Source of the DNA: a virus
DNA length: 26,734 nt
IMG/VR virus record: IMGVR_UViG_3300009128_000114
Location: 1 to 26,734 of that record
Reading direction: 5' to 3' (one strand)
Shown in pieces: positions 12,167 through 22,648 of this stretch; positions within the stretch are counted from its first letter, which is position 1, and each line of letters begins with the position of its first letter. The notes under the pieces are model-generated. The model had not been told where the DNA came from, ran no database searches, and saw only the letters and a list, made by a program, of their open reading frames with translations. Position numbers and translations under genes: made by a program.

Positions 12167-12463
12167 TCAACCGTTAGCATAAACATTTGGAGAACCTTGA
12201 GTCAAGGATATACCACAACCATATGGGTCTCCGAGTCTTGCTAAAGGTTTTCCGTTTACATATACGTTAGGAGAACCTTTAACGAGTGCTGTTGAGTGTG
12301 TTGGGCAAGTAACTGGAGTATGTGGGTGAGCAGTATTTACATCCCCAACCCTATGTACTGCTATACCATTACAATAAACATCAGATGATCCAGTTGCTGC
12401 AGTTGGAACTACACCACACTCGTGTACTGATATTGTATCTCCAATTCTACTTACTTTAGGCAT
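12167..12463 (-). CDS. PAAR-repeat spike tip protein (gp5.4-like)
   Basis: 98 residues, close to T4 gp5.4 (97). It shows the PAAR pattern: MPKVSRIGDTISVHECG at the start, VYCNGIAVHRVGDVNTAH, then CPTHST, GSPNVYVNGKPLARLGDPYG and a final GSPNVYANG. The repeated G(S)xNVYxNG and RxGD units and the His/Cys residues (H14, C16, further His and Cys in the middle) are those that bind a metal ion in the cone. PAAR proteins cap the trimeric spike and sharpen its tip for piercing the outer membrane. The ATG lies inside the gp5 stop region with an 8-base ATGCCTAA overlap. Confidence 0.9.
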   Translation of the reverse strand: MPKVSRIGDTISVHECGVVPTAATGSSDVYCNGIAVHRVGDVNTAHPHTPVTCPTHSTALVKGSPNVYVNGKPLARLGDPYGCGISLTQGSPNVYANG

Positions 12464-14327
12464 AATTCACATCATATGCTGGTTTATAATTATCAGGCAC
12501 TTTTCTATTCAAACCTAAACTTACCATATCAGCATCAATTGCTTTAACAGTTTTCTCTGATAATTTAACACCCAATCTACAAAGAGTAGGATACATATCA
12601 ACCTCAAAGGTTGTACATCTATTTACTGCAAGATATCCAAGTACTCTTGATAAGAATTCGTCTTCCATTTGAAATGGTTGATAAGCACTTAACATTAAGA
12701 AATCCTCAGCAAGTCTAGATGGATTTTTAATTGAATTCTTATGTTCAGGAGTAATCGTTTTAATTAAAGATTCAACTTCAGAATCTGTTAATAAGTTTAC
12801 ATTTCCCTTTCCCCATTTTGCAACGTGATAATCATGACCACCTAATTCGTGGATAAATGTTTGTAGTAACGAATGTCCGTCTAATTTAACAAACAACATA
12901 ATATCGAATGCTTCATACCATCCACCACCTAATACTTGGTATGATTGTTTTGGTTCCATTTTACCTTTCGGTGCAGTTGGTTTTTCAACACCAGCATATA
13001 ATAATTGCCTAATAGGGAAAACTGGAATCTTAGTATCGATAATATTTTTTAATAGATTATATAATTCTTCACCATCACCTTTTGCACGAATTTCTCTTGC
13101 CATTATTTCAATAGAAGATCTAATTTCTTCTAAAAATTCTTTATCTCCTTTTGTGTATTCTATTATCGTGTGTTTTCTTTTTCCAGTAGGTTCGTTTTCC
13201 TCAATCCTGACCATGTTCATTCTAGAATTTCCAGTTTCAAGATGGAAATCTATATCTCCTAATTGTGGGAACCTCTTATAATACTTAGACCAATAACCCA
13301 TTAAACGAGAACCTCTTGTCCATTTCATTTTAGACCAGATCTCTGTGATAATTTTGGTTATCCATGCAGTTTCATTATCATAGTCCAATTGTGGGCAATT
13401 GGAAATTTCAGTTGCAACTGCAGTTGGGTTTTTATCAGCAACAAATTCTACCGTTCTTGCACTAACGTCTACTGATCCATATTTCGTGTCAGTAGGAATT
13501 GCTCCAACAGTCGGATTAATAGAAGTAGGATTCCAATCAATTCTTGGTGCAATAAATCTCATATTACCACCACTAACTATATCGCAAGTTCCACCAATAT
13601 CTGCTCTATAATCACCAGTCACTTTTAAGTTGACGTTTCCATCAACATATACATTCACATCACCTTTAACACGAACATTATCATCACCAGCAATAACCAC
13701 ATAATTATTACTTACTATATGTTGCGATTTTGTTCCATCAGGATGTATTTCGTAAAACGTTCCGGATCTATGATATTCTCTAATTCTTTCAGCACCCTCA
13801 GTATCATCATATTCTTTGAAATGACCTGACTCAGTTTCCATTACATGATTGTATGGGTACTTTGCGTCATATGGTGTTTGTGGTTCTTTTAATAGTTGGT
13901 CTGGGGCATAGACTCTTGTGTTCTCCCCTCTCGCCAATTTGTTTACATCACTCTCATTAGTATATCTCGGGAATTTTTCGGTAGGATCGTTGAATCCAAA
14001 CGCACTGTTGGACTTCTCAGAAGGCATTCCAGGTATAGTGCCCATAATGGCAGGTTCTTGAGCACGATCTCCATCCATAAAGAATCCGAACACCCAACTA
14101 CCCTCAACCATACCAGTCGGAGATTTACCTACTCCACTTGTAGAAGCAGAATCAATACTATTAATAGGAACTGCCCAAGGAAGATCTTCAGTAGGAATTG
14201 CACTCTTATCGTCAGTGTGCCACCCGAATGCACGAACACGCACACGTCCGAGTTCTATTGGATCGTTTCGGTCTTCAACAACACCAACGAACCATTTAAA
14301 TCCATTTCTTCCTATAAAGTTTCTCAT
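12456..14327 (-). CDS. 5: gp5-like baseplate spike with C-terminal metallopeptidase-like domain
   Basis: 623 residues. Residues 1-105 form the gp5/VgrG OB-fold (FVGVVEDRNDPIELGRVRVR; later EGSWVFGFFMDGDRAQEPAI). Residues 160-205 (ESGHFKEYDDTEGAERIREY) lead into a short beta-helix at 205-265 with repeating V.G/V.V units (VRVKGDVNVYVDGNVNLKVT). I see no lysozyme domain such as T4 gp5 carries between these parts. Residues 315-623 are an added domain: a strand (FDIMLFVKLDG), then a helix with HELGGH at 493-498 and RLAEDF with E541 48 residues after H493. HExxGH plus a downstream Glu is the M49-type gluzincin arrangement. H501 also lies nearby. Peptidase activity is inference; the spike identity is firm from the OB-fold, beta-helix and adjacent PAAR gene. 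Confidence 0.85.
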   Translation of the reverse strand: MRNFIGRNGFKWFVGVVEDRNDPIELGRVRVRAFGWHTDDKSAIPTEDLPWAVPINSIDSASTSGVGKSPTGMVEGSWVFGFFMDGDRAQEPAIMGTIPGMPSEKSNSAFGFNDPTEKFPRYTNESDVNKLARGENTRVYAPDQLLKEPQTPYDAKYPYNHVMETESGHFKEYDDTEGAERIREYHRSGTFYEIHPDGTKSQHIVSNNYVVIAGDDNVRVKGDVNVYVDGNVNLKVTGDYRADIGGTCDIVSGGNMRFIAPRIDWNPTSINPTVGAIPTDTKYGSVDVSARTVEFVADKNPTAVATEISNCPQLDYDNETAWITKIITEIWSKMKWTRGSRLMGYWSKYYKRFPQLGDIDFHLETGNSRMNMVRIEENEPTGKRKHTIIEYTKGDKEFLEEIRSSIEIMAREIRAKGDGEELYNLLKNIIDTKIPVFPIRQLLYAGVEKPTAPKGKMEPKQSYQVLGGGWYEAFDIMLFVKLDGHSLLQTFIHELGGHDYHVAKWGKGNVNLLTDSEVESLIKTITPEHKNSIKNPSRLAEDFLMLSAYQPFQMEDEFLSRVLGYLAVNRCTTFEVDMYPTLCRLGVKLSEKTVKAIDADMVSLGLNRKVPDNYKPAYDVNYA

Positions 14328-14555: not shown

Positions 14556-14816
14556 CTATAAATATTTTTTCTTTAAATGGTCTGCTGTAGAATCATCCCC
14601 CTTTCTCCTAGCAGTGTCTATGTATGCTTGTACAGCATCATCATAATCAGAAGTCTTCAATAACTTTTGAAATAAGTTACTAATTTCTTGTGATTGTTTT
14701 TCACCTTTCTTATATACACTATGGTCATCAGAATAACTATACCACCAATCATATTTTGAAAGGAGTTGCCTGAATTTTTTTAAATCGTTTTCGAATAAGT
14801 TATTATATTTTTTCAT
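14556..14816 (-). CDS. Small unknown protein in the hub operon
   Basis: 86 residues, not recognised. It is mostly helical and charged, with an aromatic patch in the first third (YDWWYSYSDDHSVYKKGE, residues 21-38) and a Lys-rich C-terminus (DHLKKKYL). No signal peptide, membrane segment or cysteine. It lies between the gp27-like hub gene and the 72-residue gene, with gaps of 7 and 10 bases. The tight spacing supports it as a real gene; the aromatic DWWYSYSDDH stretch seems familiar from other T4-like marine phage hypothetical proteins, but no function is known to me. Confidence 0.65.
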   Translation of the reverse strand: MKKYNNLFENDLKKFRQLLSKYDWWYSYSDDHSVYKKGEKQSQEISNLFQKLLKTSDYDDAVQAYIDTARRKGDDSTADHLKKKYL

Positions 14817-20698: not shown

Positions 20699-20817
20699 AA
20701 CACCATAAATACTCGTTGTCTGAACTTGATAATATGATACCTTTTGAAAGGGAGATATACGTCACCTTTTTGAAAAACTTTTTAGAAGAACAAGCAGAGC
20801 AACAGAAGAATGCCTAA
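20650..20817 (+). CDS. gp51-like C-terminal chaperone frame, probably made by -1 frameshift
   Basis: A 55-residue frame beginning MHDSLANLYELNFALMQHHK and continuing YSLSELDNMIPFEREIYVTF then LKNFLEEQAEQQKNA. The short His-rich, then S.xEL..M.PFEREIY pattern followed by a Gln/Glu-rich helix is typical of the C-terminal T part of tail-assembly chaperones. It corresponds in place to T4 gp51, but is much shorter (T4 gp51 has 249). There is no ribosome site before its ATG (the upstream is gp26 coding sequence), while it is exactly in the -1 frame of gp26 after the slippery heptamer, so it is probably translated only as the end of a gp26 fusion. Its stop overlaps the tape-measure start (ATGCCTAA). 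Confidence 0.7.
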   Translation: MHDSLANLYELNFALMQHHKYSLSELDNMIPFEREIYVTFLKNFLEEQAEQQKNA

Positions 20818-22648
20818 TACAAACGAAAAACTTAATCTACCAATTGTAAATGCAATTGAAGACTTAAAAGCATCTAATACTGATAATAGACAACGTCTAC
20901 AAAAAAGTATGCGAGCAGGTATGCTCAATATTAAAAAGTCGGTGGATTCTCTTAATGATAATTTCATCAAGGCATTCGAACTTCAAAAATTAAAAGACCA
21001 ATTTGACCGTGAGAGAGCATTAGAAGAATCACGTAAAGATACTAAAGAAATTCAAACTCAGGCAACTAAAGCAGATAAAAAAGGTGATGGAACAAGTCTT
21101 GTCAAATTAGGTTTATTGTTTGGTGGAATTGCTGCAGCATTGGGTGTTGCGAGTGGTTCGTTAGTTGCTTGGACGACTGGTGTCACAAAGGCAGGTAAAG
21201 CAATCACATCATTTGTAGGTAAACTTGTTGGAATCAGTCAGAGTGGTAAATTTGCAAAGATATCTGCTGGATTAGATAGTGCATTAAAATCAGTAAAAGG
21301 TTGGAATTCTAAAATCCTTGATGTATTAAAAGCAGGTGTTGGTAAATTGACTGGTGCAGTTAATGCAATTAAAAATTCTAAATTTGTTACTACAATCGGT
21401 AATTGGTTCGATGAAATTAAAACTCTTGGTTCTAAAGTAGCATCTAAATTTAAAGCATTTAGTAAAACAAGCGGAACTATCAATAATACTTTCAAAATGA
21501 TTAAAGGTTCGTTAAGTGCGTTCGGTGCAATCTTTAACACCATGAGTAAATTAGCAACTAAAGTATTTTGGCCAATTAGTATTATCCTTGCAAGTTTTAC
21601 AGCAATTAAAGATTCATTCCAACAATTTGCTGATGGTGATATTTTAGGTGGATTGAAGACAGTAGTTACAACTCTTGTTGATGAGTTATTCGCAAAACCT
21701 TTAGATATGGTTAAAAATGCTATTGCTTGGGTTATTGGTAAACTTGGGTTTGATGAAACTTCAGATGCTATTAAATCATTTTCTTTTTCGGATCTATGGA
21801 AAACAATGATGGATGGTTTGTTCAAAGGGATTAGTGCAGCAATTGATTGGGTTATATTATTATTCAAAGATCCACTTGCAGCATTTAAAAACTTATGGGA
21901 AGGAATGTATGGAAAAGAAGGAATTGTTACAAAATATATTTTCAAACCTATTAGCAAGGCAGTTGATTGGGTCGTAGATAAATTCAAAAACCCAGTAGAT
22001 ACTATTAAAGATTTGTGGGATGGAATGTATGGCGAGGGTGGTATAATTGACTGGTTAATCTTTCAACCAATCAGTGATGTTGTTAATTGGGTTAGAGGTC
22101 TATTCGGTTGGGACAAAGACAAAGACGGTAAAGAATTAGCAGAATTTAATTTAAGAGATTTTGTAGTTGGTGTTATTGATGATGTGTGGAAATCTATTAC
22201 TGATATCTTTGATAGTATTAAAAACTTTGATTTTTATTCAATAACCCCTGATTGGTTCCAAGAATGGAAAGGTGTTGGAAAGTATGCAAAAACCGCAGAA
22301 GACCATAAACAAGAGGGATTAGAAATTATAAGAAATGGGCATACACCTAGAACCGATTTAGATAATGAAGCAGAAGCGAATAATAGGTTGTTGGGAACTG
22401 AAGAAATTCGCCAGATGCGTCTTGCAATTGAGTGGTTAAAGAAAAACCCGACTCAGAATGCTCAAGCAATTAATGAGATGAGTAAACTTCTACAATCACA
22501 AGGACATAGTGTTAATGTTGTTGCACCAGTTACTAATACTGATGCAAGTCAAAGGGTTGTGAACCAAAGAAATGTTAGTATTCCTGCTGGTGCTGGAAGA
22601 AATAAAGGTAATCCTACTGTACAATATGAAGCAGTACCTGTTCTCTAA
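20810..22648 (+). CDS. 29: Tail tape-measure protein, gp29-like
   Basis: 612 residues, close to T4 gp29 (590), which sets tail length. The first 95 residues are charged helix; a hydrophobic segment spans about 98-121 (LVKLGLLFGGIAAALGVASG) and another about 248-265 (WPISIILASFTAI), with long Ala/Lys/Ser-rich helices between. Residues 346-385 and 386-425 are a tandem 40-residue repeat (DWVILLFKDP...NLWEGMYG then DWVVDKFKNP...DLWDGMYG), with a third start at 426 (NWVRGLFGW). Membrane-active stretches are usual in tape measures, which leave the tube first at infection. It lies right after the chaperone pair, as expected. At about 1.5 angstrom per residue a tail near 90-100 nm is predicted (inference). 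Confidence 0.78.
   Translation: MPNTNEKLNLPIVNAIEDLKASNTDNRQRLQKSMRAGMLNIKKSVDSLNDNFIKAFELQKLKDQFDRERALEESRKDTKEIQTQATKADKKGDGTSLVKLGLLFGGIAAALGVASGSLVAWTTGVTKAGKAITSFVGKLVGISQSGKFAKISAGLDSALKSVKGWNSKILDVLKAGVGKLTGAVNAIKNSKFVTTIGNWFDEIKTLGSKVASKFKAFSKTSGTINNTFKMIKGSLSAFGAIFNTMSKLATKVFWPISIILASFTAIKDSFQQFADGDILGGLKTVVTTLVDELFAKPLDMVKNAIAWVIGKLGFDETSDAIKSFSFSDLWKTMMDGLFKGISAAIDWVILLFKDPLAAFKNLWEGMYGKEGIVTKYIFKPISKAVDWVVDKFKNPVDTIKDLWDGMYGEGGIIDWLIFQPISDVVNWVRGLFGWDKDKDGKELAEFNLRDFVVGVIDDVWKSITDIFDSIKNFDFYSITPDWFQEWKGVGKYAKTAEDHKQEGLEIIRNGHTPRTDLDNEAEANNRLLGTEEIRQMRLAIEWLKKNPTQNAQAINEMSKLLQSQGHSVNVVAPVTNTDASQRVVNQRNVSIPAGAGRNKGNPTVQYEAVPVL

Follow-up and report, generated by a model that had tools for sequence, protein, structure and literature searches.

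A predicted zinc metallopeptidase domain at the C-terminus of a T4-like phage spike protein

The last 309 residues of a gp5-type spike protein, encoded by a T4-like phage that is known from environmental sequence alone, probably form a spike-tethered zinc metallopeptidase of the gluzincin type that opens an envelope barrier after contraction; we put the probability of this reading at about 0.6. The domain follows the beta-helix of the spike and belongs to a family with spike-borne and PAAR-borne members that share a set of invariant residues, and its position is held by other enzymes in related spikes.

Architecture and genomic context of the spike protein

The window analysed here is the complete 26,734-nucleotide stretch of the virus record. 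Its minus strand, to which all coordinates of the window refer unless stated otherwise, encodes a tail-tube-cap protein, gp53, a hub-type tail protein, two small genes, the spike, a PAAR protein, gp25, gp6 and further wedge proteins, and by gp6 its nearest relatives are T4-like phages from the sea, such as those akin to Melnitz and HTVC008M. The spike gene (12456..14327) encodes 623 amino acids and was assigned from its open reading frame and from Pfam and PHROG matches: the protein has a Gp5 N-terminal OB domain (aa 39-140, 13908..14213; Pfam PF06714, E 7e-34) and a short beta-helix (about aa 200-265, 13533..13730), and lies in a T4-like baseplate operon with gp53, PAAR, gp25 and gp6 as neighbours, as expected of a gp5-type spike. 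The beta-helix is seen weakly by Pfam (Gp5_trimer_C, E 0.06) and PHROG tail-spike families align at this stretch. Pfam found no Phage_lysozyme match in the 623 residues, and the protein is thus not a tail lysozyme of the T4 type. A first-pass annotation, made from the DNA letters, had described a gp5-like spike in which OB-fold and short beta-helix, with no visible lysozyme insert, are followed by some 310 additional residues carrying HELGGH at 493-498 and E541 within RLAEDF; this description holds, with all positions exactly as claimed and E541 lying in SRLAEDF.

The N-terminal part of the spike (OB domain and beta-helix) has matches in more than 2,300 phage records. A second contig encodes an identical spike protein and two more contigs encode the same architecture at 77% identity; because these copies are on other contigs, the fusion is no assembly artefact. 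The C-terminal domain (aa 315-623, 12459..13385) is under purifying selection, with dN of about 0.22 and dS of about 1.2. The linker between helix and domain (about aa 266-314, 13386..13532) is the fastest-evolving part of the spike (dN about 0.38 for aa 266-310, versus 0.10 for the N-terminal and 0.22 for the C-terminal part), as expected of a tether, which it probably is.

Two further open reading frames of the window were noted. One encodes 86 amino acids (14556-14816), lies between the hub gene and a conserved small gene of the MPLPGS type and has no counterpart at the corresponding place in loci L002, L009, L017 or L021; it was considered as an immunity protein, and no supporting evidence was found. 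The other, of 612 amino acids (20810-22648, plus strand), has no PHROG match and adjoins tail-tube and baseplate-hub genes.

Invariant residues of the C-terminal domain

HELGGH (aa 493-498, 12834..12851) is the sole HExxH or HExxxH motif in the translated window, 8,331 residues in all, whose composition predicts 0.007 occurrences of HExxGH. Relatives of the C-terminal domain were found on viral contigs as an identical copy (L001) and at 73% identity (L002, L003); scanning viral contigs with spike N-termini added members at 31% (L020/L022) and 29% identity (L103 and near copies). All of these domains are placed after the beta-helix of a spike.

Eight residues, H493, E494, H498, Y549, E555, E557, R561 and C571, are constant in all members of the family, whether spike- or PAAR-borne, while for G497 and H501 this holds only among the spike-type domains, where the motif reads HELGGH, HEIGGH or HEVLGH. 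With the two His and the Glu of the motif invariant in eight of eight members, as in gluzincins, H493 and H498 are predicted to bind zinc and E494 to act as general base. Gluzincins (clan MA(E)) take as third ligand a conserved Glu that lies on a helix tens of residues further on, and both Glu of E555-D556-E557 (12657..12665), invariant in 8/8 members, are candidates: they sit 57 and 59 residues past H498 on a predicted helix, in a block with pLDDT of about 79 within an overall weak model. Y549 (12681..12683) may possibly stabilise the transition state. The earlier candidate for the third zinc ligand was E541 (12705..12707); this position reads E/D/N/N/K/G/S/G across the eight members and, lacking conservation, is not the third ligand, a role now predicted for E557 or E555. 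Of the four residues for which the first-pass annotation had called for a conservation check, the two His and E494 are thus conserved and E541 is not. The metallopeptidase reading is supported by the invariance of this residue set among spike domains of only 29-31% identity and among the PAAR-borne ones, which are further removed, and also by the purifying selection on the domain.

Database and fold searches

Residues 315-623 have no convincing match in Pfam, NCBIfam, PHROGs, PDB sequences or phage or plasmid records; no relative of the domain was found by tblastn of the phage and plasmid records or in the genome contigs scanned. A DNA pattern for HE-x-GGH-xx-H returned two further contigs that look like chance matches, one of them antisense to a portal-type gene. 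AlphaFold gave pLDDT 29 for the whole spike (three-sequence alignment) and a mean pLDDT of 52 with pTM 0.57 for the C-terminal domain (eight sequences), with the N-terminal half of the domain below 50. Foldseek against PDB and BFVD, and VIA-align, returned neither a zincin nor any other convincing match for this weak model with pLDDT 52. We count both the absence of database recognition and the weak model without zincin match against the metallopeptidase reading.

The motif spacing had suggested M49 (DPP III) peptidases, with which the domain shares HExxGH and a later Glu. This tie did not survive: none of the eight members matches the Pfam M49 profile at E up to 10, the PAAR-borne relatives have a plain HExxH and nothing else in common was found. 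DUF4157, the family of VgrG2bC-ter, likewise gave no Pfam match, and no match was obtained among PDB sequences.

Probably related domains fused to PAAR tip proteins

The PAAR tip protein of the window (12167..12463; Pfam PF05488) has 98 amino acids and its gene overlaps the spike gene by 8 bases. Four other loci (L008, L009, L010 and L011) encode spikes with N-termini 77-78% identical to that of the window which end where the beta-helix ends, and the next gene encodes a PAAR protein of 780-819 amino acids in the complete copies. The PAAR fusions of these loci contain HESVH or HETTH and, further on, a block that reads EDEFLAR or ENEFLAR, whose first Glu comes after 52 or 66 residues; fusions carrying a domain that is probably related to that of the spike are those of L008-L010 and L089.

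Comparison of the spike domain with the PAAR region by hhalign gave P between 3e-5 and 6e-4, depending on the alignment. Among 581 different ORFs of the loci, P was below 0.02 only for the PAAR ones and for the spike domains themselves, and 150 column shuffles gave a best P of 0.009; a high score that arose among random, supposedly unrelated ORFs probably belongs to L107, a truncated family member, to judge from the full scan. The PAAR fragments were trimmed to begin just before HExxH, and the alignment at HExxH is thus partly anchored, which we weigh against the metallopeptidase reading: untrimmed MAFFT aligned the EDE block and not HExxH, although one untrimmed profile comparison did pair HELGGH with HESVH. 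Going by these profiles, the spike and PAAR domains are likely related, mainly on account of the Glu block.

Three of the PAAR proteins (L009:4802-7144, L010:3588-6044 and L089:2-2293; about 764-819 amino acids) have two successive HExxH regions. The second region (HEYSH/HEYGH) showed no profile relation to the first, no recognition by Pfam and no convincing profile alignment with the spike domain. The PAAR fusions of these phages deserve notice, because the PAAR proteins of jumbo phages are described in a survey as standalone and fused to no effector domain (PMC7824862).

Different enzymes occupy the slot after the beta-helix

The position of the domain past the beta-helix had been called structurally odd. 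It is not odd for this lineage, because related spikes bear other enzymes at this place: L077 has Phage_lysozyme, L029 and L121 have CHAP, L082 has a GH19-like match that stays below the cut-off, and phage Melnitz has an M15-like C-terminus, again below the Pfam cut-off. Evolved VgrGs of type VI secretion systems (T6SS) have the same order, with the enzyme after the beta-helix, and in the window a fast-evolving linker joins the domain to the helix. In the annotation of Melnitz-3 (L174, MZ577098.1 76363-79406) the spike is split between two abutting genes, and the downstream part ends in an M15-like motif (SQHNTGNAVDL ... WIHISL). Long spikes with unrecognised extensions past the beta-helix are also encoded by L046, L073, L074 and L084 and may hold further cargo.

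A tree of spike N-termini unites the window, in one well-supported group of 17 rows, with L020/L022, the phages that have PAAR fusions, spikes that bear CHAP and spikes in which no cargo was recognised. The mixed cargo within one group indicates repeated exchange, gain or loss, in an order that the tree does not give.

Proposed function and alternatives

We propose that the two His of HExxGH, together with E557 or E555, hold a zinc ion and that E494 serves as base. The flexible linker would hang the domain on the end of the beta-helix, with three copies per trimeric spike, and on sheath contraction the spike would take it across the outer membrane, as the T4 gp5 spike passes the outer membrane on contraction with its enzyme working in the periplasm. 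There the domain may cut an envelope barrier, most likely stem or cross-link peptides of peptidoglycan, and so fill the role of the lysozyme, CHAP or M15 domains on related spikes. Stem or cross-link peptides are our first guess for the substrate because the enzymes sharing the slot attack peptidoglycan. Peptidoglycan-cutting HExxH zincins are uncommon, and for this reason a protein substrate is quite possible.

The leading alternative, to which we assign a minor share of the likelihood, is a metallopeptidase that acts on an envelope or S-layer protein or, like a T6SS effector, on a protein of the host into which it is injected. The spike-borne gluzincin VgrG2bC-ter, toxic in the periplasm with its substrate not found, offers a precedent (PMC6899460), and the two HExxH regions on sister-phage PAAR proteins are seemingly more than opening a wall needs; however, wherever cargo was recognised in this slot on related spikes it is a wall hydrolase, and no dedicated immunity-like gene was seen beside the spike, the small gene before it being shared with relatives that lack the domain. 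Improbable is a virion-maturation protease, whose target in the assembling particle would be the spike or a baseplate partner: T4 gp5 undergoes processing as it assembles and a zincin-like peptidase has been proposed for virion maturation in jumbo phages (PMC7824862), but the domain is absent from most related spikes, some of which carry unrelated enzymes there, and a PAAR-borne relative suits cargo better than a maturation step. Just as improbable is a structural or non-catalytic metal-binding domain, either a tip or adhesion module whose zincin fold has degenerated or a domain that is no zincin, which would suit the low-confidence fold model and an activity that is only predicted, but not the retention, in spike domains of about 30% identity as well as on PAAR proteins, of both His and of the base E494, which a structural metal site does not need, nor that of the Tyr and the Glu pair.

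A peptidase delivered by the spike, as the first-pass annotation had suggested, thus gains from the invariant H-E-x-x-(x)-H on spikes and PAAR proteins and from the wall-hydrolase slot, and loses E541 and M49 as arguments.

Comparison with known spike-borne enzymes

The closest analogy, which also speaks for the proposed reading, is VgrG2b, a T6SS spike protein of Pseudomonas aeruginosa with a C-terminal gluzincin whose toxicity in the periplasm depends on HExxH (PMC6899460). Both proteins have an effector past the beta-helix of a gp5-like spike and an HExxH-type motif with a later Glu; periplasmic action is demonstrated for VgrG2b and proposed for the domain of the window. No sequence relation between the two showed up in Pfam or among PDB sequences, the HExxGH of the window has one extra residue, and the window belongs to a phage rather than a T6SS, with no immunity gene evident beside the spike. 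Like T4 gp5, the spike would take an enzyme into the periplasm on an OB and beta-helix protein; in T4 gp5, however, a lysozyme lies between OB domain and beta-helix, whereas in the window a predicted metallopeptidase comes after the beta-helix. Methylophilales phage Melnitz (MZ577098.1), the closest cultured relative by gp6 and one of the closest by spike, has the same order of OB domain, beta-helix and C-terminal peptidase-like domain, but with an M15/VanY-like motif (Pfam below cut-off) and no HExxH.

Implications

In the literature searched, no zincin turned up on a phage gp5 spike; such absence is no proof. The odds seem to us even that the domains described here are an undescribed metallopeptidase family that serves T4-like phages as exchangeable cargo of spike and PAAR proteins, PAAR-enzyme fusions included, and that is delivered by contraction like a T6SS effector. 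If this is true, contractile phages would enter by more than the cleavage of wall sugars or amides, and would swap whole peptidases on spike and PAAR tip as T6SSs swap effectors. The family may then offer a new enzyme against Gram-negative envelopes, and it would give the evolved VgrG and PAAR effectors a direct counterpart among phages, with a bearing on where these effectors originated.
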